Assembly (NCBI GenBank): GCA_027623325.1 | Contig: JAQBXY010000026.1 | Span: 1 to 45,588 of the forward strand | Direction: 5' to 3' | Length of the DNA: 45,588 nt | From: Gemmatimonadota bacterium | GTDB taxonomy: Bacteria > Gemmatimonadota > Gemmatimonadetes > Longimicrobiales > Gaopeijiaceae | In this document: one piece after another, positions 603 to 23,821 of the stretch | How positions within the stretch are numbered: the first letter of the stretch is position 1 | Layout of the letters: each line of letters starts with the position of its first letter | Position numbers and translations under genes: made by a program | The notes under the pieces: model-generated | The model's database searches: none | What the model was told of the DNA's origin: nothing | What the model saw: only the letters and a program-made list of their open reading frames with translations

Positions 603-1568
603 TCAGGTCGTCAGGTGGCAGGCGCTGAAGTGATCGGGGCCGACCGGTTTCAGCTCAGGAACCTCCCGGGCGCAGATAGCCTCCGCACGGGGGCATCGAC
701 TCCGGAAGACGCACCCGGAGGGAGGATTGATGGCGCTGGGGATGTCCCCGCTCAGGATCGTCCGCTTCGTCCGACGTCCCGGCTCCGGCACGGGAATCGC
801 AGAGAGGAGCGCCTCGGTGTAGGGATGATTGGGGTTGTCATGCAGGTCCCGGGCGGGAGCGATCTCCATGATCTTCCCGAGGTACATCACGGCCACCCGG
901 TCGCAGATGTGATCCACCACGGCCAAGTCGTGAGCAATGAAAAGCATGGTCAGATCGAGCTGGTCCTTGAGATCGCTCAGGAGGTTGATGACCTGGGCCT
1001 GGATGGAGACATCGAGGGCCGAGACAGGCTCGTCGGCCACTAGGAAGTCGGGATTCACGGCCAGGGCCCGCGCGATCCCGACTCGCTGACGCTGTCCTCC
1101 GGAGAACTCATGCGGAAAACGATCCAGCTGATCGGCGGAGAGCCCCACTTGCTCCAAGAGTTGCACCGCGCGTTCGGGTCGGCTCTCCGGCGTTCCAATC
1201 CGGTGTAGCGCCAACGCGTGTCCGAGGACCGTCCGGACCTTCTCGCGCGGATTCAAGCTGGCGTAGGGGTCCTGGAAGATGATCTGCATGCGCTTCCGGA
1301 AGGGGCGCATGCCGTTCCTGGGCAGCTCGAGGATGTTGGTCCCGTCGAAGACCACCTTCCCTGCGGTCGCCTCTTCGAGACGCAGGACCATTCGGCCGAC
1401 CGTGGTCTTGCCCGAGCCGCTCTCTCCTACGAGTCCGAGAACCTCCCCCCGCTTTACCGAGAAGGTGACGCCATTCACAGCTTGGACGTGATTGACGACG
1501 CGATTGAGTGCGCCTCCCCGAACGGGGAAGTGTTTCACGAGACCCTCTACGGAAAGCAGGTCCGTCAC
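603..1568 (-). CDS. dppF: Dipeptide/oligopeptide ABC transporter ATPase (DppF/OppF type)
   Basis: This is the second ATPase of a Dpp/Opp-type importer and hydrolyses ATP at the inner face of the membrane. The 321-aa protein shows Walker [10 protein letters not shown] (near residue 50), the signature [15 protein letters not shown], and Walker [12 protein letters not shown]. The C-terminal oligopeptide/dipeptide extension carries the cysteine-rich motif [15 protein letters not shown]. Length and domain order are normal for the family. It overlaps the upstream dppD by 4 bp and is the last gene of the minus-strand arm. The matching binding protein and permeases lie about 18 kb away on the other arm (20255-23755). 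Substrate cannot be read from the ATPase. The dpp versus opp name is a family-level choice. Confidence 0.9.
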
Positions 1569-2575
1569 GGGGCGACCTCCGTCGCGAGGCCCAGCTCGCG
1601 CCAGCGCAGGCAGCGAACGTCGTGCTCGTCGGAAGCCTGCTCCAGGATGGGCGCGGTGTCACTACACTCCGGTCGCGCGTGGGGACAGCGGGTGGAGAAG
1701 CGGCATCCGGCCGGTAACTCCCGCAGCGCGGGCACGTGCCCCGGAATGGTCCGGAGCCGCCGCTGCCCGTCCGACCCGCCCAGACGGGGAATCGACGCGA
1801 TGAGCCCGGCGGTGTACGGCATCCGTGGGCGGCTGAAGATCTCCTCCACGGGTCCGCGTTCCACGACCTGGCCGGCGTACATCACCACCACGCGATGAGC
1901 GATCTGGGCTACGACGCCGAGGTCGTGCGTAATGAAGATGATGGCCATCCCCAGTCGTTCCTGGAGCTCCTCCAGGAGATCCAGGATCTGGGCCTGGATG
2001 GTGACATCAAGGGCGGTCGTAGGTTCGTCGGCGATGAGGAGGCTCGGGCTACAGGCCAGCGCCATGGCGATCATGGCACGCTGGCGCATGCCGCCGGACA
2101 TCTCGTGGGGATAGTTGTCGACGCGCCGGGTGGGTTCCGAGATACCCACCGTCTCCAGCATCGCGATGGCACGCGCGCGCGCCTCTACCTTGGAGAGCGC
2201 TTCGTGCTCAATCAATACCTCGGCGATCTGCGCGCCCACGGTGTGCACCGGGTTCAGACTGGTCATCGGTTCCTGGAAGATCATCCCGATCTGCTTGCCC
2301 CGAACGGAACGCATCTCCTCATCGGACAGCTCGGTGAGCTCCCGTCCGTCCATCCGGATCGATCCCCTCGTGATTCGCCCCACCCTAGCTGGGAGGAGGC
2401 GCATGATGGAGAGCGCGGTCACCGACTTACCCGATCCGCTCTCTCCCACGATGGCGAGCGTCTTCCCCTGATCCACGGTGAATCCGACCCCATCCACGGC
2501 GACCACGGCGTCACCTCGCCCGAGGACAAAGCTGGTCTGCAGGTCGCGGACCTCCAGGAGGGGCGAGGTACTCAA
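1565..2575 (-). CDS. dppD: Dipeptide/oligopeptide ABC transporter ATPase (DppD/OppD type)
   Basis: This is the first ATPase of the Dpp/Opp importer. The 336-aa protein has Walker [14 protein letters not shown] (near residue 43), signature [15 protein letters not shown], Walker [19 protein letters not shown], and the C-terminal [15 protein letters not shown] motif of the oligopeptide-transporter subfamily. It overlaps the upstream amidohydrolase and the downstream dppF by 4 bp each, so the three are probably translationally coupled. With dppF it would complete the transporter whose other subunits (20255-23755) sit on the right arm. Placing importer ATPases at the end of a hydrolase operon supports a dedicated uptake role, which is an inference. 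Confidence 0.9.
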
Positions 2576-3963
2576 CTGCCCGTTCCGCTTCGGAGAGGGC
2601 GGGCGAAGCGCCCCGTCCCGGGGGCCGCCGTGATCGTCGTCCCATCCCAGATCTTCTGTCCTGCGAGGACCGTTGCGGCGATGCGTCCGAGGTACCGGTC
2701 GCCGTGGGCCAGCTTCGCGACGTCCCGTGCCGCAGTGAGCAGGTTCTCAGGCGTCGGTCGGGTCTCCCCGGACAGGTCCACCAGAACGAGGTCGGCCCGG
2801 GCCCCCGCAGCGATGACGCCCCGATCGGGCAGATCGAAGCGGCGCGCCGCAGCGGTCGACACGAGGTCCGCGACTCGAGGGAGCGTCAACGTACCCCGAG
2901 CCACGGCGTCGAGCAGGCAGGGCAGCAGGAACTCCGTCCCTGGATGCCCCGGAGGCGCGGTGAGGAAGTTCTGCGCATGGGACGCCTTCTCGGTTACCGA
3001 AAAGGCTGCGTGGTCGGTGGTGACGTGGGTCAGCGTCCCGTCGTGTAGGGCCTCCCAGAGTGCCTCCCGGTCGGTCGCGGTCCGAATGGGCGGATTGACC
3101 TTACCGTACACGCCGACCCGAGCGACGTCTTCATGGGTGTGGCGGAGGTAGTGCGGGCATGTCTCCGCGCTGAAGTCAGAACTGCCGGCGAAGCGACGCA
3201 GGACCTCCAGGGTGACCGCGGAGGTCACGTGGGCGATGTGGAGCTTCGCCCCAGCCTGAAGGTTCAGGGCGAGGAGTTGGGCGACCGCCAACGCCTCCGC
3301 GATGGGCGGCCGAGCGGCGGCGTGCGTGGCGGCGTCCGCGGGGTCCAGCCCGGCGGCGAGGGCCGCACCCCTCGCCAGGATCGCCGGATGCTCAGCATGC
3401 GCCACCACCGGCAGACCATGACGGGCTGCCAGGGTGAGGGCCTGGAGCTGATCTGCGGGATCGGGCCACGCGAGTCCCTCGAACTCTCGCTCTCGGCCCG
3501 ACGGTGCGGGGATCGTGAAGATTTTCAGCGCCACGGCGCCGGACTCGGCCAGCGCCTCGAAGGCGGACGACGTCAGCTCGGCCGGAGCCGCGTACAACGC
3601 GAAGTCGACGAGCGCGGAGGCCGCGAAGTGGTCTCGACGAAGTGCCACCCGGTCGGGAGCGTTGCAGCACGGGTCCGTTATGGGCATCTCGAACAGCGTC
3701 GTGATGCCACCCGCCGCGCACGCTGCCGTCTCCGACTCGACCGTCCCGCGCTCGGGGTATGCTGGAGAACGCAGGTGACAGTGGATGTCGATGGCTCCCG
3801 GGAGGACGTGTAGCCCGGCCGCATCCCACGTCTCGGTCGCCTCGACGGAGGCGTCCGGGGAGGTGATGGCCGCGATCCGACCATCCTGGATGCCCAGAGT
3901 TCCCGGGCGCACGCCTTGCGGCGTGACCAGCAAGCCGCCGGTGATCGCCAGGTCGAAGGTCAC
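2572..3963 (-). CDS. Cyclic amidohydrolase (dihydroorotase/allantoinase/hydantoinase family)
   Basis: The 463-aa protein is a TIM-barrel metal amidohydrolase of the family that opens cyclic ureides (dihydroorotate, allantoin, hydantoins). The HxH motif is in DIHCHLR (near residue 60). The lysine that would be carboxylated is in [10 protein letters not shown], further His ligands are in HAEHP and LHIAHVTSA, and the Asp ligand is in [10 protein letters not shown]. All expected ligands are therefore present. The full length matches allantoinase and hydantoinase. It overlaps dppD and the glycosidase-like gene by 4 bp. A PuuE-type allantoinase and ureidoglycolate lyase on the other arm favour a ureide ring substrate. 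Dihydroorotase is less likely in this context. The exact substrate is unresolved. Confidence 0.8.
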
Positions 3964-5381
3964 CGCAGACCCAGCTCGTCCAGTGCCTGGGCCACACCAT
4001 CGAGGTGGGTGAGGTGCATCGACGCGTAGTTGGGGGCCAGCACCACGCCGTCACCGCCCGCCCGGTACGTCGCCATGACCGACCGGTACACGATGTCCTT
4101 CGAACACTTCGCGGTCTCGGGGCGGGTGCGCGGGGCGTCGACCCCGATGCCCATGTACACGTTCGCATTGCCCTCCACACCCCGCACCGCATCGGCGCAC
4201 TGCCCGTGGACGTAGGTGTCGGGGTCCATACCCGCGGCGATCAGCTCATCGAAGGGAGCCTCGTTCAGCCCGAGGATCCGGAAGAGCGCGCGCGTGGCCT
4301 CGTCGGGCTGGAAGTCACGGAGGATCGTCGTGCGCAGGAAGTTGAGCTCCTTGTGCCAGATCTCACCGCTCTGATGCTGATACGTGATTGGCTTCACGAA
4401 GTCGGCGTAGCGCGTCTGCTCCGCCCATGGCCACTGCGCCCTGCGGAGGAGGCTGAAGTGATTCCGGTTCCACACGTTCAACCCGAACGGGAGATCAGGG
4501 CGGCACCACTTGACCAGACCGTACAGCTCGCGGTCGAGGTCCTTGTTACGCTCGAGCCAGAACTTCTCCCAGATGAGCGCCTCCGGATTGTCGAGCAGAA
4601 CGCGCAGGAAGGTGACGAGCGGGCCGTCGACGAAGGTCTTTCCAGCCGCCGCTTCCTGCATGAAGTCGTACAGGCGGAGCAGAGCCTGACGGCACGCCTC
4701 GACGTTGATGCCTCGATCGATCGCTTCTCGGCGCGACGGCTCGGAGAAGTCCCCGGGGGCGCCGCCCTGGATGAGCGTATCGAGGGGGGAGTTCCGCTCG
4801 TTGCACCACATGACTCCGTCGAGGGCGTGGTTTCGCACCTGGTCCTCGATCATCGAGTGGATCCAGCGGCGGTACCCTGGATTCGACGTCGAGGGCTCGC
4901 CGCCGAGCCGACCGAAGAGATCGACCTCCATCGCCTGCGCCAGCGTCGGGACCTCCACATTTCCGGCTGAGCCGTGCCCCGCGTACTTGAAAAACGGCTC
5001 CATCAGCTCGATGTAGACCTTCATCCCGCGCTCGTGTGCTTCCGGGATCACCATCTTCAGGATGTCGCGCCCCTCGAACTCCGGATCCCGGCTCCGGAAG
5101 TCGGCCATGAACGTGTGCTCGTAGTAGCGCGGGTCCGGATCGAAATAGGCGCCCCCGCGCATCTGGTACGGCTCCGGCACGCCGTGGTCCGGCCAGCCGT
5201 CGAGCTCGTGCGTGATCGATCGACCCGACTTGAGCCCCAGCCAGCTGACGGTGCCGAGCATGAGGACATTGACGCCCACCCGGTTCTGTAGCGTGTCGAG
5301 CACCGTGTCTACGCCCTCGTCCACGAAGCTGATCGGACTGATCTGGATGCCGACGAAACGGTCCTTCGATTCGGAGGTCAT
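3960..5381 (-). CDS. TIM-barrel, glycoside-hydrolase-like protein, function unknown
   Basis: This 473-aa soluble protein has no signal peptide, so it is probably cytoplasmic. The N-terminus (VGIQISPISF, GVNVLMLGTVSW) resembles the first strands of a beta/alpha barrel. Later segments (AHERGMKVYIELMEPFFKY, LDGVMWCNERNSPL, LPFGLNVWNRNHFSLL, ADFVKPITYQHQSGE) resemble those in GHL10-like putative glycosidases, where acidic residues follow beta strands. Candidate acids are E in YIELMEP and E in WCNERNS. It overlaps the cyclic amidohydrolase by 4 bp and follows the aminotransferase by 19 bp. I cannot name a reaction. An intracellular glycosidase-like barrel in an amide-cleaving operon suggests the substrate may carry a sugar, or that the barrel has another use. 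Confidence 0.6.
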   Translation of the reverse strand: MTSESKDRFVGIQISPISFVDEGVDTVLDTLQNRVGVNVLMLGTVSWLGLKSGRSITHELDGWPDHGVPEPYQMRGGAYFDPDPRYYEHTFMADFRSRDPEFEGRDILKMVIPEAHERGMKVYIELMEPFFKYAGHGSAGNVEVPTLAQAMEVDLFGRLGGEPSTSNPGYRRWIHSMIEDQVRNHALDGVMWCNERNSPLDTLIQGGAPGDFSEPSRREAIDRGINVEACRQALLRLYDFMQEAAAGKTFVDGPLVTFLRVLLDNPEALIWEKFWLERNKDLDRELYGLVKWCRPDLPFGLNVWNRNHFSLLRRAQWPWAEQTRYADFVKPITYQHQSGEIWHKELNFLRTTILRDFQPDEATRALFRILGLNEAPFDELIAAGMDPDTYVHGQCADAVRGVEGNANVYMGIGVDAPRTRPETAKCSKDIVYRSVMATYRAGGDGVVLAPNYASMHLTHLDGVAQALDELGLR

Positions 5382-5400: not shown

Positions 5401-6579
5401 TCATGAGGAGGATCGTGCGGCGGCGCTGAACGCGCTGATGCGCTCCATCGCCTCTTGGATCATCGGGAGTGGCTGCAGATAGCTGATCCGGATGTAGTCG
5501 GTGCTTTCGTCGCCGAACATGGTGCCCGGGAAGAGCATCACGCCGGTCTCCTTCAGAAGGCGCAGACAGAAGTCGGGGGATGCCAGTCCGGTCGATGAGA
5601 CGTTCGTATAGATGTAGAAGGCGCCGCCGGGGTGGCCGTAGGTGAAGCCAGCCTCGTCGAGGGCAGGCATGAGCCAGGCGCGGCGCTGAGCGTACGCCTC
5701 GAGCATCGCGTCGACGGGTTCCTGCGGGCCGGTCAGCGCCGCCAGAGCGGCGTATTGGCTGATGGTGCAGGTATTGATGGAGAGCGTGTGACGGGGCTCG
5801 GTCAGCATCGCGATCAGGTCGCGGGGCGCCGCCAGGTAGCCTATGCGCCACCCCGTCATCGAGTACGTCTTGGAGAAGCCGTTGAGCGTGACGGTGCGCT
5901 CTCGCATTCCCTTCAGCGTCGCGATCGAGAGGTGCTCGTTCGGGGCGTAGATCATCTGCGCGTAGATCTCGTCAGCCACGATGATCAGGTCGTGTCGAAT
6001 CGCCAGCTCGGCGATCGCCCGGATCGCGTCGGGCGGGGTCACCGCACCGGTCGGGTTGTTGGGCGACACCAGGACGAACATCCGGGTGGCCGGTGTGATG
6101 CGCTTCTCGATCTCCGCCACGTCCAGCGCGAAGTCGTCCTTCTCGAACGTCGGTACCGGGACGGGGGTGCCTCCACAAAGGCGGACCGCAGTGTCGTACG
6201 ATGTGAAGCGCGGGCTCGTGATGAGGACCTCGTCTCCGGGCGAGCACAGGCCCAGCATCGTCAGCATGATGCCTTCCTGGGCTCCGGCCGTGACTACGAT
6301 CTCGTCGGCCGCGTAGTCGAGCCCGTATCGGGCCGTCAGGTCCATGGCGATCGCCTCTCGTAGCGGCGCGATCCCGGTGGGACCCGTGTAATGGTGATGG
6401 TTTGCGTCGAGAGCGTCCTTCGCTGCCTGAACGATGTGCGCGGGCGTGTGGAAGTCCGGGTCTCCCCGGCCGAGTGCGATGACGTTGTCGAGGCCTGCCG
6501 CCATTCCGAGCATTCGGGTGCGGAACGCTCCGTCCTCTTCGACGATGCGGGGTGCGAGGCGATCGATCAGAAGGCTCAT
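5401..6579 (-). CDS. PLP-dependent class I/II aminotransferase (AspC/AAT-I family)
   Basis: The 392-aa protein moves amino groups between an amino acid and a 2-oxo acid. Visible motifs are the substrate-side NNPTGAV, the cofactor Asp in IIVADEIYAQMIY, and the PLP lysine in NGFSKTYSMTGWRIGYLA. A conserved Arg of the C-terminal domain is in YIRISY. Length is typical of fold-type I subgroup I-gamma aminotransferases. It overlaps the upstream amidohydrolase by 4 bp. A clear paralogue is on the right arm (13501-14688), with the same GRGDPD, TPAHI and TGPQE segments. The two may act on different amino donors. Specificity cannot be read from sequence. Confidence 0.85.
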   Translation of the reverse strand: MSLLIDRLAPRIVEEDGAFRTRMLGMAAGLDNVIALGRGDPDFHTPAHIVQAAKDALDANHHHYTGPTGIAPLREAIAMDLTARYGLDYAADEIVVTAGAQEGIMLTMLGLCSPGDEVLITSPRFTSYDTAVRLCGGTPVPVPTFEKDDFALDVAEIEKRITPATRMFVLVSPNNPTGAVTPPDAIRAIAELAIRHDLIIVADEIYAQMIYAPNEHLSIATLKGMRERTVTLNGFSKTYSMTGWRIGYLAAPRDLIAMLTEPRHTLSINTCTISQYAALAALTGPQEPVDAMLEAYAQRRAWLMPALDEAGFTYGHPGGAFYIYTNVSSTGLASPDFCLRLLKETGVMLFPGTMFGDESTDYIRISYLQPLPMIQEAMERISAFSAAARSSS

Positions 6580-7802
6580 CCGTGCATTCTCCGGCCGCCG
6601 ACGAAGGTCGTCTTCACGCGTTCGAGCGCGAACAGGTCTTGGTCCGGCTTGCCGTCCACGACGATGAGGTCCGCGGCCTTGCCGACCTCCAGTGTCCCGA
6701 TGAGGTGGTCCATCTTCGAAAGTCGGGCCGCCCGAATGGTGATCGACGCGAGGGCGTCCATGTTGTCGACGCAGACTCCGACCTTCACCATGTGCGCGAG
6801 TTCGGGTGCGATCACGTCGTGCTCAACGGCGGGGCTGCCGGCATCGGTTCCGAACACGATCGGCACGCCGGCCTTCGCGGCCTTCACCAGTCCCGCATAA
6901 CGAGTTGGGTCCGCCACGGCCTTCTGGCGCTCCACGATCTTCCACTGGGGGATGCCGAAGCGTCGGGCGATGTCCGGCTGACTCTGCTGGACCAGGGGCG
7001 CAAACGTCGTGACGATGGGGATCTTCTTTTCCAGGAGCAGCGCCACCGTGGCGTCCGACATTGAGCCGCCGTGCTCAATGCAGTCCACGCCGAAGCGGGC
7101 GACCCGTTCGATGCACGCGTCGTACGTCGCGTGGGCGGTGATCGGCAGACCGTTGCGGTGCGCCTCGTCGATGACCGCGTGCAGCTCCTCGTCGGTGAAC
7201 TCGAGGGTGTCGTGGCACGCCATGATCTTGATGAGGTCGGCCCCACCTTTGACCTGCTCGCGGACGGCCCGGCGCATCTCGTCGGCGCCACTAGCCTCCC
7301 GGCAGACCCAGTAGGTGTGTCCGCCGGTCTGGATGATGGCAGCGCCCGTGACCTTCAGCCGGGGGCCCGGAACGATGCCCTGCTCCACGGCCTGCTTGGT
7401 GAAGAGGTTCATTTCGTGAAAGCCGAGGTCTCGCACCATGGTCACGCCGGCGCGCAGGCACTTCAACATGTTGCCCGCGGCCTTGAAGGCGGAGATCGGC
7501 TTGGGGTCGTCCATCGACTGGCGAGCCAGGTCGTGGATCCCGTCCCAGTTCAGATGAGCATGGCTGTTGATGAGACCGGGCATGAGCGTTCCACCGGTGT
7601 CTTCAACCGCGGCAGAACCCGCGACCATGTCAGCCCGCGTCCCGACGGCGACGACCTTCCCGTCGCGCACCTCCACGAAGCCGTCCTCGATGACGTCGCC
7701 CGCCATGGTCAGCACCCGTCCCGTCAGTACGACGTGCTCGGCGGGGGGGTCGAACATCGGTTTCGTGATCTTCTGATATCGCCAGGCGGCGGGCTCGGGC
7801 AT
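6576..7802 (-). CDS. Metal-dependent amidohydrolase (imidazolonepropionase/prolidase-like)
   Basis: The 408-aa protein belongs to the amidohydrolase 1 family. It shows HxH in INSHAHLNWDG (near residue 80), a probable carboxylated Lys in GGADLIKIMA, a His ligand in ITAHATYDA, a second in DCIEHGGSM, and the Asp in VFGTDAGSP. It lacks a signal peptide, so it should act in the cytoplasm. Relatives cleave Xaa-Pro or Xaa-Lys/Arg dipeptides, imidazolone rings or other amides, so specificity is open. It is the second amidohydrolase of the left arm and is quite different from the cyclic one at 2572-3963. It ends in a 4-bp overlap with the aminotransferase and follows the M24 gene by 44 bp. Confidence 0.8.
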   Translation of the reverse strand: MPEPAAWRYQKITKPMFDPPAEHVVLTGRVLTMAGDVIEDGFVEVRDGKVVAVGTRADMVAGSAAVEDTGGTLMPGLINSHAHLNWDGIHDLARQSMDDPKPISAFKAAGNMLKCLRAGVTMVRDLGFHEMNLFTKQAVEQGIVPGPRLKVTGAAIIQTGGHTYWVCREASGADEMRRAVREQVKGGADLIKIMACHDTLEFTDEELHAVIDEAHRNGLPITAHATYDACIERVARFGVDCIEHGGSMSDATVALLLEKKIPIVTTFAPLVQQSQPDIARRFGIPQWKIVERQKAVADPTRYAGLVKAAKAGVPIVFGTDAGSPAVEHDVIAPELAHMVKVGVCVDNMDALASITIRAARLSKMDHLIGTLEVGKAADLIVVDGKPDQDLFALERVKTTFVGGRRMHG

Positions 7803-7846: not shown

Positions 7847-9016
7847 TCAGACGGACAGTGTGCGGGACTCGACAGGGTGGTCGGTCTGGAAGCGGCTCGC
7901 TACCTCCACTCCATCCGTACCCGTGACGAGGGTATCGATCGTACGCCATCCGTCCAGCCCGGGGCGGTACACGCCGGGCTCGCACGAGAAGACCATTCCG
8001 GGGCCCGTGGGCGTCCGGTCGCCGGGGGCGAGCCAGGGGGCCTCATGCCCCTCGACCCCCATCCCGTGGCCGATGCGATGGCGGATGGCGTCGCCCAGGC
8101 CCGCCCGTCGAAGGACGCCGAGGGCGGCGTGGTTCACCTCGGCGCACGGTAGACCACGTTCCAGCGCGTCCACGGTCGCGGCGCCCGCTTCGGCCATCGT
8201 CTCCATCACGCGCCGTTGCTCCGGCCCGATCTCTCCGTAGACCAGGGTCACGCCGCTCTCCGCATGATATCCGCCGAGGCTACACCCGATTCCGGCTACG
8301 ATCGGCTCTCCGGGTCGCGGGCGGCGCGCGGTCACGCTGCCGTGGGGCAGGGCCGCGCGCGGCCCGGAGTGTACGGACGCGGTGATGCCCATCTTGGTCC
8401 CCTGGAACTCCTCGCCGTGCGTGTCTGCCAGCAACCGTCGGACGGCTCCGGTGCAGTCCGCGAGCAGATCCTCTTCTGTGCCTGATTGCCGGAGGATGTC
8501 TCCACCAGCCTCCAGGAGCCGGGACAAGACGCGGTCGGCGAAACGGGCGGCCTCCCGGATCAGCGCGACCTCCGCGCCTGTTTTCACGGCCCGCTCGGGC
8601 CGGACGTGGTCGACGAGGTCGAGCCGCTCCAGCCACGCGCGGGCGGGCCCCAGGAGTTCGGCGGCGAGCGCGTCGACGGCCATTCGGGCGACGCCCGCCT
8701 CCTCCGTCATCCAGAGTACCGGCGGGCGCTCTCCGGGAAACTCTTCGTAGGTGCGCACCTCGACCCCGGGCACGTCCATCGCGTTCTCGAGTTCGAGCAG
8801 CGGGACCAGGAGCAGGGCCTCTCCGTTCACCGGGAGCCAGAGCCCGATCGGGCGCTCGTTCACCGAGAAGTGCCATCCGGTCGCGTACGTCACATTGCCG
8901 GACGAGAGTAGGAGGAGGCCGTCCAGCTCCGCGGCTTCGGCGCGCCGTCGCAGCCGCTGGCGGACCTCTTCGAAGAAGGTGGGTGGGAGCGGGCTCGGGG
9001 CGAGAGCAACCGTCAC
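7847..9016 (-). CDS. M24 family hydrolase, creatinase-like, metal ligands lost
   Basis: This is a pita-bread-fold protein of 389 aa with an N-terminal creatinase domain (about 10-150) and a C-terminal M24 domain. Metallopeptidases of the family use D, D, H, E, E. Here the first Asp position reads Gly (VAGIG), the second reads Glu (YHAESG), and the last Glu reads Ile (GWRTID). The His of GHGMGVEGHE and the Glu of SCEPGVY remain, as does the His of LPHGSV. That pattern resembles metal-free creatinase, which cleaves creatine to sarcosine and urea, rather than aminopeptidase P. I chose the GTG at 9016 because it overlaps the upstream stop as GTGA. A GTG at 9034 is possible. Ectoine hydrolase (DoeA) is an alternative relative. 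Confidence 0.75.
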   Translation of the reverse strand: MTVALAPSPLPPTFFEEVRQRLRRRAEAAELDGLLLLSSGNVTYATGWHFSVNERPIGLWLPVNGEALLLVPLLELENAMDVPGVEVRTYEEFPGERPPVLWMTEEAGVARMAVDALAAELLGPARAWLERLDLVDHVRPERAVKTGAEVALIREAARFADRVLSRLLEAGGDILRQSGTEEDLLADCTGAVRRLLADTHGEEFQGTKMGITASVHSGPRAALPHGSVTARRPRPGEPIVAGIGCSLGGYHAESGVTLVYGEIGPEQRRVMETMAEAGAATVDALERGLPCAEVNHAALGVLRRAGLGDAIRHRIGHGMGVEGHEAPWLAPGDRTPTGPGMVFSCEPGVYRPGLDGWRTIDTLVTGTDGVEVASRFQTDHPVESRTLSV

Positions 9017-10092
9017 AGCGTCGCGTCCTCCCACGGCCCGACCACCTCGATCTCCCGGCCCACACCGAGCTCGGCGCCCAGGGCGAGCAAGTCGTCGAGC
9101 ACGATATTCTCCAGCGGCACCCCCGCCTCGGACTTACGGGCCACGCGTCGAGCCTCCTGTTCGCCCGGGATCAGGATCTCCGTGAAGCCCGGTCGCAGCG
9201 CGCTCGACTTGCACATCCTCGCGAAGTCGTCCATCCGCCGCCGGAAGTCGTCGAGCGGCATGAACCATTCGACGTCGATCGCGATGAGCGTGTGACTCAC
9301 GTCCCATCGCGCCTGGTCCGCATAGGGCTTGAGCCCGTAGCCGCCTCCGCCGAGGACACCGGTGAGCACATCGGTCATGAAAGCGAGACCGTACCCCTTG
9401 TACTGACCGATCCCCAGCAGTGCGCCGGCCATCGCCGCGTTCGGGTCGTCCGTCTCCTCGCCCTCCGGGGTCAAGGCCCAGTCGAGCGGGATCGCGCGTC
9501 CCTCCTTCGCGTGCCACGTCATCATCCCCTTGCCAGCGGTGGTGAGGGCGATGTCGAGGACGGCGGGGAAGCCGAGCCCCGTTGGCACCGCGATCCCCCA
9601 CGGATTGGTGCCGACCACACCTTCCCGGCCACCCCAGGGGGCCATTTCCGGCCCGGCGTTCGTGAGCGCGATTCCGATGCAGCCCGCCTCCGGACCCAGG
9701 CACGCGTGTACCGCGCTCGAACCGAAGTGTGTCGAGTCACGCACCACGACCTGACCGATGCCGCAGACCTTGGCCTTCTCGATCGCGAGCCGCATGGCGC
9801 GTGTCGCCGCCACCGTCCCGATTCCGTTGTGGGCGTCGACCAGCGCTAGCGCCGGGCTCTCCTTCACGATCTCCCACGGTGCGGCCGGGTCGACCAGCCC
9901 TTCGGCGAAGCGGCTCCCGTACCGCCTAAGCTTCTTCACCCCCTGGCCGTGGCCGGGGTGGAAGCGGAGCTCCGAGAAGACGAGCGCGTCCCCGAAGATC
10001 TGGGCCTCCTCGTCCGGGAGTCCCATCGCACGGAGGAGGTCGAACACGAAGGCCTCGAGGCTTTCGCGCGTCACGGCGGTCATCGGAATCAC
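9013..10092 (-). CDS. Malate/L-lactate/ureidoglycolate dehydrogenase family (Ldh2/AllD)
   Basis: The 359-aa NAD(P)-dependent oxidoreductase has the non-Rossmann fold that oxidises 2-hydroxy acids or reduces 2-oxo or imino acids. Family marks are the N-terminal RFHPGHGQG, the catalytic His in RDSTHFGSSA, the cofactor-binding TTAGKGM, PEGEETDDPNAA and the glycine-rich QYKGYGLAFMTDVLTG. AllD, which oxidises ureidoglycolate to oxalurate, belongs to this family and would fit the ureidoglycolate lyase on the right arm. Lactate, malate, sulfolactate and piperideine-carboxylate enzymes look alike. It is 20 bp after DUF4438 gene 1 and overlaps the M24 start. The family is secure; the AllD role is an inference from context. 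Confidence 0.85.
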   Translation of the reverse strand: MIPMTAVTRESLEAFVFDLLRAMGLPDEEAQIFGDALVFSELRFHPGHGQGVKKLRRYGSRFAEGLVDPAAPWEIVKESPALALVDAHNGIGTVAATRAMRLAIEKAKVCGIGQVVVRDSTHFGSSAVHACLGPEAGCIGIALTNAGPEMAPWGGREGVVGTNPWGIAVPTGLGFPAVLDIALTTAGKGMMTWHAKEGRAIPLDWALTPEGEETDDPNAAMAGALLGIGQYKGYGLAFMTDVLTGVLGGGGYGLKPYADQARWDVSHTLIAIDVEWFMPLDDFRRRMDDFARMCKSSALRPGFTEILIPGEQEARRVARKSEAGVPLENIVLDDLLALGAELGVGREIEVVGPWEDATL

Positions 10093-11869: not shown

Positions 11870-11972
11870 CGGTATCCTCGGACCGCTCGCTTGACAGCGC
11901 CCTCCGGAATGGGGCACGTTGCTCGGCCAATTGTCGACAACATACAGGCCGCAGGGCAAAGAGTCCAACTCC
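11870..11972. promoter_or_regulatory. Divergent promoter region between the two catabolic arms
   Basis: This 103-bp gap separates the start codons of the two arms and must contain both promoters, unless each arm has only internal ones. TTGACA at 11891-11896 is a perfect -35 hexamer on the plus strand, but the sequence 17 bp further on (GCACGT) is a poor -10. A 10-bp palindrome lies at 11931-11940. No clear terminators are present. Confidence 0.55.
11931..11940. promoter_or_regulatory. Palindrome TTGTCGACAA, candidate GntR/FCD operator
   Basis: This perfect 10-bp palindrome lies 33 bp before the M32 start codon and 62 bp before the DUF4438 start. Regulators of the FadR/FCD group often bind short palindromes of the TTGTnnACAA or TNGTNNNACNA type. 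The cluster encodes one such regulator at 17603-18271. It could act on both arms from here. Evidence is position and shape only. Confidence 0.4.
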
Positions 11973-13493
11973 ATGAAATACAACGCCTTACTGGAGCGAA
12001 TGGGCGAGGTGAACGACCTCCTCTGCTCCCAGTCGATGCTCGACTGGGACGCTCGGACGATGATGCCGCCCGGAGGGGCGCACACCCGCGCGAAGCAGCT
12101 GGCCACACTCAAGGTCTTCGCCCGCAATCACTTGGTGGCAGACGAGACTCGTCGCCTCCTGGACGCGGCCGAGGCCGAGACGGTCAACCTCCCAGGGGAC
12201 AGCGTCGAGCGGACGATCTGCACTCAGGTCCGCGAGGCCATCGACTATCACCTGAGGATTCCGGCCGCGCTGGTGCACAAGCGCACCGAAATCGGTTCCA
12301 AGGGACAACACGTCTGGGCGAAGGCGCGCCAGGAAGGAGACTACGCCTCGTTCGCACCGGTCCTCGAGGAGACGCTCGAGTTGAACCGCGAGATGGCCGA
12401 ATGCATCGGGTACGAGGCACATCCGTACGACGCGCTCATGTACCGGTTCGAGCCAGGCGAGACGGTCGCGACGCTTCAACCTCTCTTTGCCGCACTCCGA
12501 GGGGGTCTCCTACCTCTGGTTCAGGCGATCGGGGAGAAGAAAGCCCCGCGCGTCGACTTCCTACAGCGTCCCTTTCCTGTGGAGAAGCAGCTCGAGTTCG
12601 CGCTTAAGATGGCGCGTAAGCTAGGCTACGATACGGATCGAGGACGCCTCGACCTCACTGTGCACCCGTTCGAGATCTCCTTTACCCGCAACGACGTTCG
12701 CATCACCACCCGCGTGAACGACGAGTGGATGCCGAAGAGTCTGTTCGGCACGCTCCACGAGACGGGGCACGCGGTGTACGAGCAGTACTGCGATCCGGCG
12801 TACACCCGGACACCCCTCGCCACCGACCTCATCGGACTGTACGCGGTGGGCGGGGTGAGCTTCGGCGCCCACGAGAGCCAGTCTCGCCTCTTCGAGAACC
12901 ACGTTGGTCGGAGCCGCGAGTTCTGGGAGCACAACTACGGTGAGCTGCGCGACACCTTCCCCGAGCAGCTCGCGGGCATCGATGCCGAGACTTTCTGGCG
13001 TGCTGTGAACCGCGTCGAGCCTGGCTTCATCCGGGTCGAGTCGGACGAGTTGACGTACGACTTCCACATCATGCTGCGCGTGGATCTGGAAGCTTCGCTC
13101 ATCGACGGCAGCCTGAGCGTGGCGGATCTGCCCGAGGCGTGGAACGCGAAGGTGAAGGAATACCTGGGTCTCGACGTGCCGAACGACCGACTCGGCGTAC
13201 TGCAGGACGTGCACTGGTCGTCGGGGCAGGTCGGGACGTTTTGCAACTACACCATCGGCAACGTGATGGCGGGGCAGCTCTTCGCCGAAGCGAAGAAGGA
13301 CGAGCGCGTGCGCGCAGGCTTGGCGACTGCCGAGTATGCGCCGCTCCGCGAGTGGATGACCGAGCACGTTCATCGCCACGGCCGCAGGTACACACGGGAA
13401 CAGCTCCTGGAGCGTGCCACGGGGCAGGGGCTCGAGCCGTCCTTCTACATGGAGCATCTCTCGGCGAAGTACTCCGAGATCTACGGACTCTGA
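11973..13493 (+). CDS. M32 family metallocarboxypeptidase (carboxypeptidase Taq type)
   Basis: This 506-aa zinc carboxypeptidase removes C-terminal residues from peptides in the cytoplasm. It shows the HExxH zinc site in TLHETGHAVYEQY, the third ligand Glu in GAHESQSRLFENH, and the family motifs DWDARTMMP near the N-terminus and GQVGTFCNYTIGNVMA near the C-terminus. Length matches carboxypeptidase Taq. I chose ATG 11973 because homology starts there; an upstream GTG/ATG frame to 11919 overlaps the promoter region. It opens the right arm and is followed after 7 bp by an aminotransferase, consistent with trimming imported peptides and then deaminating the freed amino acid. Confidence 0.92.
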   Translation: MKYNALLERMGEVNDLLCSQSMLDWDARTMMPPGGAHTRAKQLATLKVFARNHLVADETRRLLDAAEAETVNLPGDSVERTICTQVREAIDYHLRIPAALVHKRTEIGSKGQHVWAKARQEGDYASFAPVLEETLELNREMAECIGYEAHPYDALMYRFEPGETVATLQPLFAALRGGLLPLVQAIGEKKAPRVDFLQRPFPVEKQLEFALKMARKLGYDTDRGRLDLTVHPFEISFTRNDVRITTRVNDEWMPKSLFGTLHETGHAVYEQYCDPAYTRTPLATDLIGLYAVGGVSFGAHESQSRLFENHVGRSREFWEHNYGELRDTFPEQLAGIDAETFWRAVNRVEPGFIRVESDELTYDFHIMLRVDLEASLIDGSLSVADLPEAWNAKVKEYLGLDVPNDRLGVLQDVHWSSGQVGTFCNYTIGNVMAGQLFAEAKKDERVRAGLATAEYAPLREWMTEHVHRHGRRYTREQLLERATGQGLEPSFYMEHLSAKYSEIYGL

Positions 13494-13500
13494 GGTCGGC

Positions 13501-14688
13501 ATGACGAACGCTCGCACCCGACTCGCCCAGCGCGTCCTGCTCAAGGACCAGCACATCGTCACCCGGATGATGGAGCTTGCTTCCGGACTTCCCGACGTGA
13601 TCAAGCTCGGGCGCGGCGACCCGGATCTCGATACGCCCGCGCACATCATCCGGGCGGGGCAGGAGGCGTTGGCCGCGGGCGCGACGCACTACACGAATCC
13701 GATGGGACTCCCCGAACTCCGCCAGGCGATCTCGGACAACATCGCCTCGCACGGCGGGGCCCGGTACGCGCCCGAAAACATCGTCGTCACCCCGGGCGGG
13801 CAGCAGGCCATGTTCATCATCGCGCTCGGGCTCCTCGATCCGGGAGACGAGCTGCTCATCCCGTGCCCGGGGTACAACCCGTATCTCCAGGCCGCCGAGC
13901 TCACGGAAGCGAAGCTCGTCGAGATCCGGATGTCGATGGAGACGAACTTCACGCTCACGGCGGAGATGGTGCGCGCGCACATCACGCCGCGCTCGAAGGT
14001 TCTCGTTCTCATCAACCCTGGGAACCCGACGGGGACGGTGATTCCTCCGGAAGAGGTCGAGCGGATCTGCGAGGTCGCGAAGGAGCACGACCTCATCGTC
14101 GTCTCCGACGAGATCTACGCCCGGATCGTATACGGCGATCATCGCGCGCAGCCGGTCGCGGCGCTCCCCGGGATGCAGGAGCGCACGATCACGCTCTCCG
14201 GTGTCTCGAAGGCGTACGCGATGACCGGCTGGCGGGTCGGGTACTTCGCCGGACCCTCCGACCTCATGCCCGCGCTCGCGGAGATCCATCACGCCTTCGC
14301 CATCTCCACGTCCGCAGTGGGCCAGTGGGCCGCGCTCGCAGCCCTGACCGGTCCGCAGGAGTGCGTCGAGGAGATCCGGCAAACCTTCGACGAACGGAGG
14401 CGGGTGCTCTGTGCGGGGCTCGACGCGCTGGGAATCCCCTACGCCGAGCCCGAGGGCGCTTTCTACGTCTACGCCCGGGTCGCCGAGACCGGTGTGCCCG
14501 CGACCGAGTTCTGCGAGCGACTCCTCACCGAGGGGCAGGTCATGATTTTCCCGGGCAAAATCTACGGTGACTACACGGACGACTTCGCCCGCATGTCGCT
14601 GACGCAGTCGGTCCCCCGCATCGAGGAAGCGCTCCGCCGCATGGCGAGCGTTGTCGAGTCCATTCGTCAAGAACAGTCCGTGACCTAG
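13501..14688 (+). CDS. PLP-dependent class I/II aminotransferase, second copy
   Basis: The 395-aa fold-type I aminotransferase has NPGNPTGTV, the cofactor Asp in IVVSDEIYARIVY, the PLP lysine in SGVSKAYAMTGWRVGYFA, and C-terminal FARMSL, where the usual substrate-carboxylate Arg is expected. It is paralogous to 5401-6579 on the other arm, with colinear GRGDPDLDTPAHII and ALTGPQE segments. The arginine context differs (FARMSL here, YIRISY there), so substrates may differ. The ATG at 13501 is 7 bp after the carboxypeptidase stop; the longer frame upstream is inside that gene. The amino donor is not determinable. Confidence 0.85.
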   Translation: MTNARTRLAQRVLLKDQHIVTRMMELASGLPDVIKLGRGDPDLDTPAHIIRAGQEALAAGATHYTNPMGLPELRQAISDNIASHGGARYAPENIVVTPGGQQAMFIIALGLLDPGDELLIPCPGYNPYLQAAELTEAKLVEIRMSMETNFTLTAEMVRAHITPRSKVLVLINPGNPTGTVIPPEEVERICEVAKEHDLIVVSDEIYARIVYGDHRAQPVAALPGMQERTITLSGVSKAYAMTGWRVGYFAGPSDLMPALAEIHHAFAISTSAVGQWAALAALTGPQECVEEIRQTFDERRRVLCAGLDALGIPYAEPEGAFYVYARVAETGVPATEFCERLLTEGQVMIFPGKIYGDYTDDFARMSLTQSVPRIEEALRRMASVVESIRQEQSVT

Positions 14689-14713
14689 AGCCCAAAAACG
14701 CGAGATCAGAGCC

Positions 14714-15193
14714 GTGAAGTCAGACAATCCGAACGTCCGCGGGATCAAGCACATGGCCTTCGCGGTGAAGGACGCCGCCGGGGCGCTCGACGCGTATGCA
14801 CGCTTCCTGCACGTGCCGGCGGACACTCACATCGAGTTCTACCCGAAGTCGAAGAACCGCGTCGCGCTCTTCTACCTCGGGGGCATCGAGTACCAGCTCT
14901 GCGAGTCCACCGACCCCGACGGCCGCTTCGCGAAGTGGATCGCCGCACGCGGTGCGGAGGGGCTACACCACATCTGTTATGAAGTGGACAGCATCGACGA
15001 AGCGCTGGCCCATGCGCAGAAGCAGGGCGCGACGCTCCGTATCTGCCAAGCGTGCCAGGTCCTCGGCTCGCATCCGCACCCCGAGGGGTGGGTGGCCTTC
15101 CTGGACGACGAGGCCGGTGGCATCGAGATCGAGTTCATGCAGGTGTACACGCCCGAGCAACTGAAAGAGTACGAAGCCTACAAGGGGATCTGA
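14714..15193 (+). CDS. VOC superfamily protein (methylmalonyl-CoA epimerase/glyoxalase-like)
   Basis: The 159-aa protein has two beta-alpha-beta-beta-beta repeats of the vicinal oxygen chelate fold. Candidate metal ligands are His in GIKHMAFAVKD, Glu in YQLCEST, His in EGLHHICYEVDSI and Glu in GIEIEFMQV. The layout most resembles methylmalonyl-CoA epimerase, but VOC proteins also include lyases, isomerases and dioxygenases. The start is a GTG, since no ATG precedes the first conserved strand. It is 25 bp after the aminotransferase and 1 bp before the deacylase. A role as an epimerase or isomerase of a pathway intermediate is an inference. Confidence 0.75.
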   Translation: MKSDNPNVRGIKHMAFAVKDAAGALDAYARFLHVPADTHIEFYPKSKNRVALFYLGGIEYQLCESTDPDGRFAKWIAARGAEGLHHICYEVDSIDEALAHAQKQGATLRICQACQVLGSHPHPEGWVAFLDDEAGGIEIEFMQVYTPEQLKEYEAYKGI

Positions 15194-15194
15194 G

Positions 15195-16187
15195 ATGACG
15201 GCCGCCCGCACCATCACCGTAGGAACCGCGACCGCAGCGCCGGGGAACGCCGTTCGCGGCACGATTCCCGTGACCGAGCTGGCCGGTGGAACCCCGCTGG
15301 AGATCCCGGTCGTCGTGGTCAACGGCGCGAAGGGGGGACCGTGCTTCTGGGTGAACGGCGCGATCCACGGGGACGAGCCCGAGGGACCGCTCGCCTGCCA
15401 GATCGCGCTCGCCGAGGTGGATCCCGCGAAGCTGTCCGGTACGCTCGTCCTGTGCCCGGTGCTCAACGTGCCGGCCTTCAACGCGGCCGAGCGTGGCAAC
15501 CCGGCGGATACCTTCAGTTACGACATGAACCGAATCTATCCGGGCCGGCCCGGCGGATACCTCAGTGAGCGGGTCGCGGCGGCTCACGCCGCCGCAATGG
15601 GTCCGGTCGCAGACTTCGAAATATCCATCCACTCGGGCGGCGCCCACTCCTTCCTCGACAAGGCGATCTTCGTCGACGAGAGCCCGGAGTCGGTCGAGCT
15701 GGCCACCGCGATGGGCCCGGGCTGGGGGTGCATCATGTCCAACTTTAACCCATCGGGCAGTCCGATGGCTTATATGAAGCAGCTCGGAAAGGTGGGGATC
15801 ACCGTCGAACTCGGTGGACGCTCCGCCACGTCACCCGAGGCCTTTGCCCGGGTCGGCCGCGAACTTGCCGACTCGATCCTCAACATCCTGCGCCACTACG
15901 AGATGTATCCCGGCGAGGCGGCGTACCCGTCACCGCGCTACCGGGGGCAGCAGGAGGCACTTCTCGCGCCCGCGTCCGGGATCTTCCTGCCCGCTCCTGG
16001 CGTCGACTTCCTGACCATGATGAAGAAGGGCGACCCGATCGCGCGCATCGTCAACATCTTCGGAGACACGCTGGCTTCCCTCGAGGCACCCGCCGACGGG
16101 ATGTTCTTCGGACTGCGTGCACTACCCAACGTCCAGACCGGCGACTGGTGCTGCTTCTTCTGCAAAGTCGAAGGGACGCGGGACTGA
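15195..16187 (+). CDS. Succinylglutamate desuccinylase/aspartoacylase family deacylase
   Basis: This 330-aa zinc hydrolase is of the AstE/AspA (M14-like) family, which removes acyl groups from amino acids. The zinc motif is NGAIHGDEPEG (near residue 55), followed by the conserved YDMNRIYPGRPGG, the third zinc ligand in ISIHSGG, and a probable catalytic Glu in TVELGGRSA. The C-terminal beta domain (about 240-330) is lipoyl/biotinyl-like, as is common in this family. Start ATG 15195 is 1 bp after the VOC stop. DoeB of ectoine breakdown belongs here too, but its partner genes EutBC are absent. The natural substrate is probably an N-acyl amino acid or an N-acylated intermediate. Confidence 0.85.
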   Translation: MTAARTITVGTATAAPGNAVRGTIPVTELAGGTPLEIPVVVVNGAKGGPCFWVNGAIHGDEPEGPLACQIALAEVDPAKLSGTLVLCPVLNVPAFNAAERGNPADTFSYDMNRIYPGRPGGYLSERVAAAHAAAMGPVADFEISIHSGGAHSFLDKAIFVDESPESVELATAMGPGWGCIMSNFNPSGSPMAYMKQLGKVGITVELGGRSATSPEAFARVGRELADSILNILRHYEMYPGEAAYPSPRYRGQQEALLAPASGIFLPAPGVDFLTMMKKGDPIARIVNIFGDTLASLEAPADGMFFGLRALPNVQTGDWCCFFCKVEGTRD

Positions 16188-16189
16188 GG

Positions 16190-17104
16190 ATGGAGCCTCC
16201 GCGCGACTTCGTCGGGTACGCCGACAGCCCTCCAGACGTCCACTGGCCGAATGGCGCGCGCCTGGCTGTGAACTTCGTGCTCAACTACGAGGAGGGCTCG
16301 GAGTACTCGATGCAGGACGGAGACGGCCGTACCGATGCCGCCCTCTCCGAGGTCGCCACCTCGCGGGTGCCGCGTGGCGACCGGGATCTTGGCGCGGAGA
16401 GCATGTTCGAGTACGGAAGCCGGGTCGGGTTCTGGCGGATCCACCGGCTCTTCCAGGAGCGCGGGTTGCCGCTGACCGTCTTCGCCTCCTCCCTGGCGCT
16501 GGAGCGGAATCCCGAGGCGGCCCGGGCCATCGCCGAGTCCGACTGGGACGTCGTGTGCCACGGGCGGCGCTGGATCGAGCACTACCTGCTCGACGAGGCG
16601 ACGGAGCGGGCAGAGATCGCGGAGGCCTACGACACGGTCGAGCGCCTCGTCGGCCGGGCGCCGGAAGGGTGGTACTGCCGGTACGCGCCGTCGACGAACA
16701 CGCGCAGACTCCTCGTCGAGCACGGCGGGTTCATGTACGACAGTGACGCGTACAACGATGAACTCCCGTACTGGGTTCGTGTGAGAGATTGGTCACACCT
16801 CGTGATCCCCTACTCGCTGGTCACCAACGACGCGAAGCTCGTTGGCGGACCGCTAGTGACCGGTCGCGCGTTCGCGGCCTTCCTCATCGACGCCTTCGAA
16901 GAGCTCGTCGGCGAGGCCGAGGTCCACCCGCGCATGATGTCGGTCGGGATGCACGCCCGAATCCTCGGGCAGCCCTCACGCATCCGCGGGTTACGGACCT
17001 TCCTCGACCACATCCGGGATCGGGCCGATGTCTGGATCTGCCGTCGGGGTGACATCGCGGCCCACTGGCGTGAAGCCGTGCCCTCGCCGCGCGTCGGCGC
17101 GTGA
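16190..17104 (+). CDS. puuE: PuuE-type allantoinase / polysaccharide-deacetylase-fold ureide hydrolase
   Basis: The 304-aa NodB-fold protein matches the allantoinase PuuE along its length, as I recall that family. It shows PPRDFVGYADSPPDVHWP at the N-terminus, FVLNYEEGSEYS (where chitin deacetylases have TFDDG), SMFEYGSRVGFWR, VVCHGRRWIEHYL, NTRRLLVEHGGFMYDSDAYND and a C-terminal DVWICRRGDIAAHW. Members open allantoin to allantoate; some relatives hydrolyse other cyclic imides. I chose ATG 16190, 2 bp after the deacylase stop. It overlaps ureidoglycolate lyase by 4 bp, the pairing expected in purine-ureide breakdown. Confidence 0.8.
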   Translation: MEPPRDFVGYADSPPDVHWPNGARLAVNFVLNYEEGSEYSMQDGDGRTDAALSEVATSRVPRGDRDLGAESMFEYGSRVGFWRIHRLFQERGLPLTVFASSLALERNPEAARAIAESDWDVVCHGRRWIEHYLLDEATERAEIAEAYDTVERLVGRAPEGWYCRYAPSTNTRRLLVEHGGFMYDSDAYNDELPYWVRVRDWSHLVIPYSLVTNDAKLVGGPLVTGRAFAAFLIDAFEELVGEAEVHPRMMSVGMHARILGQPSRIRGLRTFLDHIRDRADVWICRRGDIAAHWREAVPSPRVGA

Positions 17105-17610
17105 TAGACGGCCGTGCCGTGAGCGCTCAGGCGCCCAACGCGGCGGCGTTCGCTCCGTTCGGGGCGTGGATCGAGCCGCCGGCCGACGTGGGTGGTCGGG
17201 CGATGTTCGGGGAGTGGCTCGACCCCGTGAAGGGACGAGCCCTGCACTGCCACCTGAACCGGGTCGAGCCGACCTCCCTGCCTGTGAAGGTGGATCGGGT
17301 AGAGCGGCACCCCCACGCCGCCCAGCTCTTCCTTCCCGTAGGGGTGGCCCGCTACCTGGTGACGGTCATGCCCTCCAACGAGGCGGGCGAACCCGACCCT
17401 CGGAGAGCCCAGGCGTTCGTCGTGCCCGGCACGATGGGTGTGGCCTACCATCCAGAGACGTGGCACGCAGGCATCTCTGTGCTGGAGGCGGAGGGGAGCT
17501 TCGCCGTGATGATGTGGCGAGGCGACAAGGACGACGACGTCTTCGCGTCCATCGAGCCGATCTGTGTGCGTGCGGCCGAAGACGCGGTCGAGGGTATGGG
17601 CGATGGCTGA
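17101..17610 (+). CDS. allA: Ureidoglycolate lyase (AllA family)
   Basis: The cupin-like enzyme of about 169 aa splits ureidoglycolate into glyoxylate and urea. Family motifs are VERHPHAAQLFLPVG (near residue 70), RYLVTVMPS, and the active-site His segment VAYHPETWHAGISVLE. The start is GTG 17101, overlapping the PuuE stop as GTGA; GTG 17119 would also fit and would lose only six residues. The end overlaps the GntR regulator by 8 bp. Together with PuuE it implies a ureide branch, yet allantoate amidohydrolase is missing, so the lyase may act on a related ureido-hydroxy acid. Confidence 0.82.
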   Translation: MIDGRAVSAQAPNAAAFAPFGAWIEPPADVGGRAMFGEWLDPVKGRALHCHLNRVEPTSLPVKVDRVERHPHAAQLFLPVGVARYLVTVMPSNEAGEPDPRRAQAFVVPGTMGVAYHPETWHAGISVLEAEGSFAVMMWRGDKDDDVFASIEPICVRAAEDAVEGMGDG

Positions 17611-18271
17611 ACCCACTCTCCACCCCATCGAGCAGACGTCGCTGCGCGTGCAGGTCGCCGAGCGTCTGCGCACCGCGATCATCACGGGTAAGCTGCGCCC
17701 GGGGGATGCCCTCACGGAGACCGCGTTGGCCGAACAACTGAACGTGAGCCGCGCGCCGGTCAGGGAAGCGATCCAGGATCTCGAGAACGACGGCCTGGTC
17801 GAGACCGTGGCGTACCGCGGGAAGCGAGTGAAGCCGCTGACCGTTCGCGAGGTGTCCGAGATCCGCGAGATGCGCCAGCACTTCGAAGTCATGGCCGTGC
17901 AGCGGATCCTGGACCAGGGCACGGGGGTGGTGGAGCTGTGGGCACCGTGTCGAGCGATGGAGGAGGCTGCCGCCCAGGGTGACCGGGACGCACTGATCGC
18001 TGCGGACGAGGCGTTCCACCGTACGATGATCCGTCTTTCCGACAACCAGCTGCTCGCCCAGCTGTGGGCCGGCCTCTACCTGAGGATCCTCCAGATCATG
18101 TCGTTGCGGAACGACCAGAACGTCGATCTGACGGACATCGCCGGAACGCATCCGCCCATTGTGAGAGCGTTGGAGTCGGGGGATGCGGAGGGCGCGGTAC
18201 GCCTCGTTTCCGAGCACTTCGACGCGCTCGCGAGCTTCGATCCTGCCACCATCGCCGGCGACCCGAAATGA
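17603..18271 (+). CDS. GntR family transcriptional regulator, FCD (FadR-like) group
   Basis: This 222-aa regulator has an N-terminal winged helix-turn-helix (about 12-75; LTETALAEQLNVSRAPVREA is the recognition region) and a C-terminal FCD all-helical ligand domain. Probable metal or ligand residues are Asp and His in ADEAFHRTMI, His in AGTHPPIVRAL and His in VSEHFDAL. I chose ATG 17603 because the helix-turn-helix follows at normal spacing; the longer frame to 17564 lies inside allA. FCD members usually repress catabolic genes and are released by an organic acid. The likely target is the palindrome at 11931-11940. It sits mid-operon, so it would be self-regulated. Confidence 0.88.
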   Translation: MAEPTLHPIEQTSLRVQVAERLRTAIITGKLRPGDALTETALAEQLNVSRAPVREAIQDLENDGLVETVAYRGKRVKPLTVREVSEIREMRQHFEVMAVQRILDQGTGVVELWAPCRAMEEAAAQGDRDALIAADEAFHRTMIRLSDNQLLAQLWAGLYLRILQIMSLRNDQNVDLTDIAGTHPPIVRALESGDAEGAVRLVSEHFDALASFDPATIAGDPK

Positions 18272-21811: not shown

Positions 21812-21845
21812 GCGGCCGCCGAATCCCGACGGGAAGGTAGGCCGC

Positions 21846-23755: not shown

Positions 23756-23821
23756 TACCGCGGGGCCTGGACCACCTCGGCCCTGCGCCGATGCATACCG
23801 CATGAGAAATGGGAGAGGTAG

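Follow-up and report, generated by a model that had tools for sequence, protein, structure and literature searches.

An M24B-fold protein with altered metal ligands encoded in an operon shared by Gemmatimonadota and Alphaproteobacteria

Creatinase (creatine amidinohydrolase; structures 1chm and 7yto) is a metal-free enzyme of the M24 fold, whose catalytic residues include His232, Glu262 and Glu358 and whose Arg64 and Arg335 hold the carboxylate of the substrate. Canonical M24B metallopeptidases, such as the prolidases of Xanthomonas (PepQ, 5cde) and Pyrococcus (PepQ, 1pv9), carry five metal ligands, Asp/Asp/His/Glu/Glu (here D1, D2, the metal His, E1 and the bridging E2). The M24 fold is also used for a non-peptidase reaction, as proposed below for the protein studied here, by the DMSP lyase DddP; unlike that protein, DddP retains its binuclear metal ligands (PMC4108388). 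In ectoine breakdown, the M24 hydrolase DoeA works alongside the AstE-family deacylase DoeB, as described in PMC3187862. Here we describe an M24 protein whose residues, as far as tested, fit neither the canonical prolidases nor creatinase.

The M24 gene and its predicted structure

The window, i.e., the whole stretch of 45,588 nucleotides analyzed in this study, is a contig from a Gemmatimonadota bacterium and contains an intact ORF of the M24B (prolidase) fold on the minus strand (Table 1), exactly where the first-pass annotation had placed it. The encoded protein matches two Pfam models, Peptidase_M24 with 135 bits against a cut-off of 23 and Creatinase_N with 29.7 bits against a cut-off of 22. 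An ORF-finding tool gave GTG at 9034 as an alternative start, resulting in a 395-aa form; the 389-aa form is preferred because its own GTG, at 9016, overlaps the stop codon of the Ldh2-family dehydrogenase gene by 4 nt as GTGA. Such a start/stop overlap is the usual sign of translational coupling, and the two genes are predicted to be coupled in this way. All residue numbers below refer to the 389-aa form (those of the 395-aa form are six higher).

The AlphaFold2 model of this protein has a mean pLDDT of 88.1 and a pTM of 0.88, with lower pLDDT values around H317 (64 for block 311-320) and H324 (58 for block 321-330). Both the pita-bread fold and the Creatinase_N domain that characterize M24B are present. 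The comparison with creatinase and ectoine hydrolase that had been suggested in the first-pass annotation came out divided: in VIA-align, the creatinase fit at least equals that of prolidase (Z 38.7, 38.4 and 37.9 for creatinases, 37.1 for prolidase and 36.1 for DoeA, most of these gaps being little above the tie limit), and Foldseek ranks Xanthomonas prolidase first (1.5e-30; creatinase, 2.3e-27). The best creatinase superposition covers 371 aligned residues with an rmsd of 2.8. The predicted model thus supports the M24 fold and does not choose between the creatinase and prolidase kinds.

Table 1. Positions of the M24 gene, its site residues and the surrounding genes in the window
Feature	Position	Strand	Basis
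dppF, dipeptide/oligopeptide-type ABC transporter ATPase	603-1568	minus	named from sequence, synteny
dppD, dipeptide/oligopeptide-type ABC transporter ATPase	1565-2575	minus	named from sequence, synteny
Allantoinase/dihydroorotase/hydantoinase-like amidohydrolase, patchy across loci	2572..3963	minus	Pfam, NCBIfam
473-aa protein, predicted (beta/alpha) barrel like glycoside hydrolases	3960..5381	minus	predicted model
Class I/II aminotransferase 1	5401..6579	minus	Pfam, NCBIfam
Amidohydrolase, kin of Xaa-Pro/Xaa-Arg carboxypeptidase-type enzymes	6576..7802	minus	Pfam, NCBIfam
M24B-fold protein, 389 aa	7847..9016	minus	Pfam matches, alignment, GTGA overlap with upstream gene
I360, replaces second (bridging) metal Glu (E2); His376 in creatinase	7937..7939	minus	alignments
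E346 (SCEPG), first metal Glu (E1) retained; aligned to creatinase Glu358	7979..7981	minus	alignments
H317 (GHG), metal His retained; low-confidence model loop	8066..8068	minus	alignments, model
E253 (HAESG), replaces second metal Asp (D2); creatinase Glu262 position is two residues later, at G255	8258..8260	minus	alignments
G242, replaces first metal Asp (D1)	8291..8293	minus	alignments
H225 (LPHGS), the PHG His; aligned to creatinase His232	8342..8344	minus	alignments
R55 (NERP), aligned to creatinase Arg64; Arg also in many canonical relatives	8852..8854	minus	alignments
Ldh2-family dehydrogenase, directly upstream of M24	9013..10092	minus	Pfam, NCBIfam, overlap
Two DUF4438 proteins	10113-11003, 11000-11869	minus	Pfam; relatives of TM1086
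M32 carboxypeptidase (Taq type), divergent from operon	11919..13493	plus	
Aminotransferase 2, glyoxalase-family, AstE/DoeB-like deacylase, PuuE-like, ureidoglycolate-lyase-like	13501..17610	plus	Pfam, NCBIfam
Epimerase, two GFO/IDH/MocA, family-5 substrate-binding protein, two permeases, SDR, M20 dipeptidase-like	18064..26998	plus	

Metal-site residues in the clade and its relatives

Metal positions were assigned by alignment with the Pyrococcus prolidase 1pv9. In the window protein they are occupied by G242, E253, H317, E346 and I360, and the five-ligand pattern of M24B metallopeptidases is therefore absent. The canonical prolidases are its best sequence matches, and it resembles them in retaining the His and Glu ligands, the PHG His and the second His (H324); it differs in having Gly and Ile at two of the five ligand positions and Glu at one. 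We compared these positions across 100 aligned M24 rows (33 from the window clade, 38 canonical, 24 from sister groups, two of creatinase, one of DoeA and two of unusual plasmid proteins). Dropped before counting were L029 (broken frame), the partial sequences L096, L026, L033 and L034, L065-L068 (the same genes as L013, L020, L027 and L030), L001 (the window itself) and L003-L006 (weak own-genome matches). The G/E/H/E/I pattern was found in 33/33 clade rows (some of which are one gene seen in two collections), with H225 fixed as well, and D/D/H/E/E in the 38 canonical rows; the change is therefore not due to chance or sequence error. The first-pass annotation, which had reported Gly, Glu and Ile in place of Asp, Asp and Glu, is thus borne out, although Glu for Asp at D2 is a conservative replacement that could leave metal binding intact.

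The clade scan yielded 28 loci from one pass over 84,980 species genomes, and most carriers of the pattern lie inside one conserved operon. Pseudotabrizicola algicola ETT8 and Devosia sp. YR412 are cultured carriers. Among the 71 pattern matches in viral contigs, none was a relative. Across the 25 rows of a second alignment (A1; 42-78% identity to the window protein), H225, E253, H317, H324 and E346 are invariant, as expected for a working active site. Since the side chains of Gly and Ile cannot coordinate metal, the canonical two-metal site cannot form in the window protein: judging from its residues, the second metal site (M2) is gone, and the first-site (M1) ligands E253, H317 and E346 remain.

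We also examined how far the protein agrees with creatinase, whose residue letters were checked against 1chm (literature numbering is the chain index plus one). In the alignment with full-length creatinase, His232, Glu358, Arg64 and His324 correspond to H225, E346, R55 and H317, respectively. A loss of the metal His in creatinase, hinted at by the first alignment, was rejected because the 100-row and full-length alignments place its GYGHS against GHG. The two proteins share the fold, the His232 and Glu358 positions and a broken canonical metal site. The creatinase-type active site proposed in the first-pass annotation holds in part: the matches to His232 and Glu358 are exact. Arg64 is aligned with R55, which is weak evidence because Arg is frequent at this position among the canonical rows as well. 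Glu262 is where the match fails. It belongs to the motif ALERT and lies two residues past the D2 position, at which E253 itself stands and creatinase has Ala; the Glu262 position is Gly in 31 and Ala in 2 of the 33 clade rows, and hence the full creatinase residue set is absent from the clade. Moreover, the Arg335 segment is a gap in the window protein, His376 is replaced by Ile, and sequence scores favor prolidase (111 bits) over creatinase (38.7 bits).

The nearest relatives outside the clade carry the motif SELERT or AESERT (or a close variant). Like the clade, they have lost D1 and the bridging E2, have Glu at D2 and keep the His and E1; unlike the clade, they also have Glu at the creatinase Glu262 position (both Glu residues in 24/24 sister-group rows) and lie in other operons. 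Twenty of these rows come from Chloroflexota, one genome of Gemmatimonadota, Deinococcus and Haladaptatus, and 4 from three Devosia-order genomes. Against 1chm, the Deinococcus sister scores 98.6 bits and a Devosia sister 83.0, compared with 38.7 for the window protein. Where they are annotated, the sister groups bear only general names (Xaa-Pro peptidase or aminopeptidase P family). One Devosia genome has two AESERT-type M24 genes in tandem (L099, 8698-10994). In six Chloroflexota loci (L103, L104 and L106-L109), the SELERT-type gene is near genes for 2-oxoacid dehydrogenase E1 components, unlike in the window operon.

In the main tree (67 rows after thinning, 12 site columns removed), a branch with 99/99 support parts 21 canonical rows, a narrow sample because most of them came from matches to the window, from a side made up of 27 rows of the window clade, the two sister groups and creatinase. 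This position agrees with a creatinase-like reading of the clade. The window clade and the AESERT group are united with 86/84 support. The place of creatinase itself, which has a long branch, is only tentative: a tree that keeps it on the outside is worse by 0.43 log units (AU p 0.437). A grouping of creatinase with the SELERT proteins, supported at 99/95 with the site columns and at only 36/20 without them, is not claimed. DoeA was left out of the trees with and without site columns because of its very long branch (3.35). Several metagenome-assembled genomes labeled Acidobacteria or Reyranella group with Gemmatimonadota or Rhodobacter-type rows (L010, L014, L016 and L017 in the main tree, L028 in another); some of them may be misbinned, or the operon may have moved between phyla. 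Two plasmid proteins, from Aminobacter pSR1 (L124) and Agrobacterium pTiK224 (L125), show other patterns of metal-ligand loss, and the pTiK224 gene adjoins SIS, PfkB-kinase and ABC-transporter genes.

The operon around the M24 gene

On the minus strand, the genes are ordered as two DUF4438 genes, Ldh2, M24, amidohydrolase, aminotransferase, barrel protein, allantoinase-like gene and the two ORFs at 603..2575, which we take to be dppD and dppF. The divergent plus-strand genes begin with M32, aminotransferase 2 and the glyoxalase-family, AstE-like, PuuE-like and ureidoglycolate-lyase-like genes, followed by the epimerase, a GFO/IDH gene, the substrate-binding protein, two permeases, a second GFO/IDH gene, SDR and M20. 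Of 29 loci, many of them incomplete, 26 contain Ldh2, 24 the amidohydrolase, 22 dppD, 21 the barrel protein and 21 M32. The two aminotransferases are paralogs, for which counts at 40% identity were too high, and 48% was used for the refined counts. The amidohydrolase is present in 24/25 loci containing both M24 and aminotransferase 1, and M32 in 18/18 loci containing both flanking genes; the allantoinase-like and AstE-like genes are less regular, occurring in 13/20 and 12/15, respectively, of the loci that keep the genes on either side of them.

Related arrangements occur elsewhere. In one Chloroflexota locus (L030), substrate-binding proteins, permeases and GFO/IDH genes accompany an M14-M24-M20 run, and the remaining enzymes of the operon are absent. 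Three genomes with AESERT-type M24 have a different operon, comprising a substrate-binding protein, M24, permeases, an AstE-like gene, dppD, dppF and an amidohydrolase. What the loci have in common is import through a peptide-type transporter and hydrolysis in steps, rather than urea. The first-pass annotation had pointed to neighbors that release or handle urea-containing groups, and this theme proved weak: the three candidate genes fall below their NCBIfam cut-offs (PuuE-like, 361 bits against 424.6; allantoinase-like, 266 against 357.85; ureidoglycolate-lyase-like, 66.5 against 160) and are patchy across loci. A search of the window's own genome gave no match to uricase and no clear urease, its urease-domain match being marginal (23.3 bits, cut-off 23, positions 58-106 of 121). 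A urea-releasing role for the M24 protein is possible and is not favored.

The sugar-type oxidoreductases and the glycoside-hydrolase-like barrel predicted for the 473-aa protein hint at a glycosylated compound. This protein, 76-91% identical over 20 aligned rows, has no match in Pfam or NCBIfam and no significant match in a sequence search of the PDB; its model (pLDDT 68) gave weak fold matches to Cwp19, PgaB and beta-galactosidases, and it is possibly a new family. The DUF4438 pair, which is conserved in the operon, is related to the solved, uncharacterized Thermotoga protein TM1086. No publication on DUF4438 was found in the open-licence literature, nor, judged by titles and the beginnings of abstracts, was a description of the operon.

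Proposed function and alternative explanations

Our best reading, to which we would give somewhat less than an even chance, is that the window protein is a creatinase-side M24B hydrolase of C-N bonds, most likely metal-free, that acts on a small carboxylate-bearing molecule derived from an imported compound. It would probably be metal-free because the second metal site is destroyed. The second metal site of a prolidase-like ancestor would have been lost in this lineage. The substrate would derive from a peptide-like, possibly glycosylated compound brought in by the family-5 ABC transporter. In the active site, R55 of the partner subunit may bind the substrate carboxylate, as Arg64 does in creatinase, E253 and E346 may hold and polarize the group to be cleaved, and H225 may play an acid-base role, activating water and protonating the leaving nitrogen.

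A one-metal enzyme is the next possibility, and a less probable one. Because E253, H317 and E346 are retained, they could hold a single M1 ion in a modified peptidase, whose target in the imported compound would be a peptide or amide bond. The three M1-type ligands in 33/33 rows, the conservative Asp change and the higher prolidase sequence scores are all in keeping with this idea, as are the peptidase neighbors (M32, M20 and the carboxypeptidase-like amidohydrolase; an M14 gene also adjoins M24 in L030 and is near it in L024). However, both D1 and the bridging E2 are lost, and the His and Glu at H317 and E346 are no proof of metal, because creatinase, which is metal-free, keeps both (His324 and Glu358).

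An ectoine-hydrolase-like role is improbable. The protein would then open the ring of a cyclic amidine or hydantoin-like molecule that the pathway makes or imports, and the AstE/DoeB-like deacylase and the aminotransferases would act next. DoeA/EutD (6twk) shares with the window protein the fold, the PHG His and an operon with an AstE-family deacylase; the AstE protein of the cluster scores 98.8 bits to the DoeB model, relatives of ring-opening amidohydrolases are nearby, and an AstE-family gene is also found in the sister-group operon. Nevertheless, the window protein is far below the cut-offs of the NCBIfam DoeA models (47.1 bits against 575 and 38.2 against 613), DoeA has other residues at nearly every site position, and the AstE and allantoinase-like genes are missing in several loci.

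Slightly less credible still is a catalytically dead binding or structural partner, comparable to Spt16 and PA2G4 of the same fold. The loss of metal ligands fits such a role, and non-enzymatic M24 proteins exist, as noted in PMC3888471; against it are the invariant H225, H317, H324, E253 and E346 and the location of the gene among catabolic enzymes. An ordinary two-metal prolidase with substitute ligands, as the prolidase fold, the PHG His and the conserved H324 might suggest, is very unlikely given the non-coordinating Gly and Ile and the canonical D/D/H/E/E paralog (L002) in the same genome.

Beyond this single protein, we put forward, rather doubtfully, a wider view: M24B may contain a large overlooked set of metal-site-deficient hydrolases that are labeled Xaa-Pro peptidases and lie on the branch of creatinase. 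The window clade would then be a metal-free C-N hydrolase with its active-site Glu two residues earlier than that of creatinase, belonging to a horizontally spread pathway for a glycosylated or ureido peptide in Gemmatimonadota, Alphaproteobacteria and Chloroflexota.

The window protein is a new variant within a well-known fold. Together with the SELERT and AESERT sisters, its clade forms a graded series from two-metal peptidase to creatinase, so that the transition from a metalloenzyme to a metal-free fold becomes directly testable. The operon is common to Gemmatimonadota and to Rhodobacter-type and Devosia-type Alphaproteobacteria, and its substrate is probably an organic nitrogen compound that is widespread in aquatic settings. 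Because such M24 proteins are annotated as proline peptidases, an operon of more than fifteen genes goes unread.
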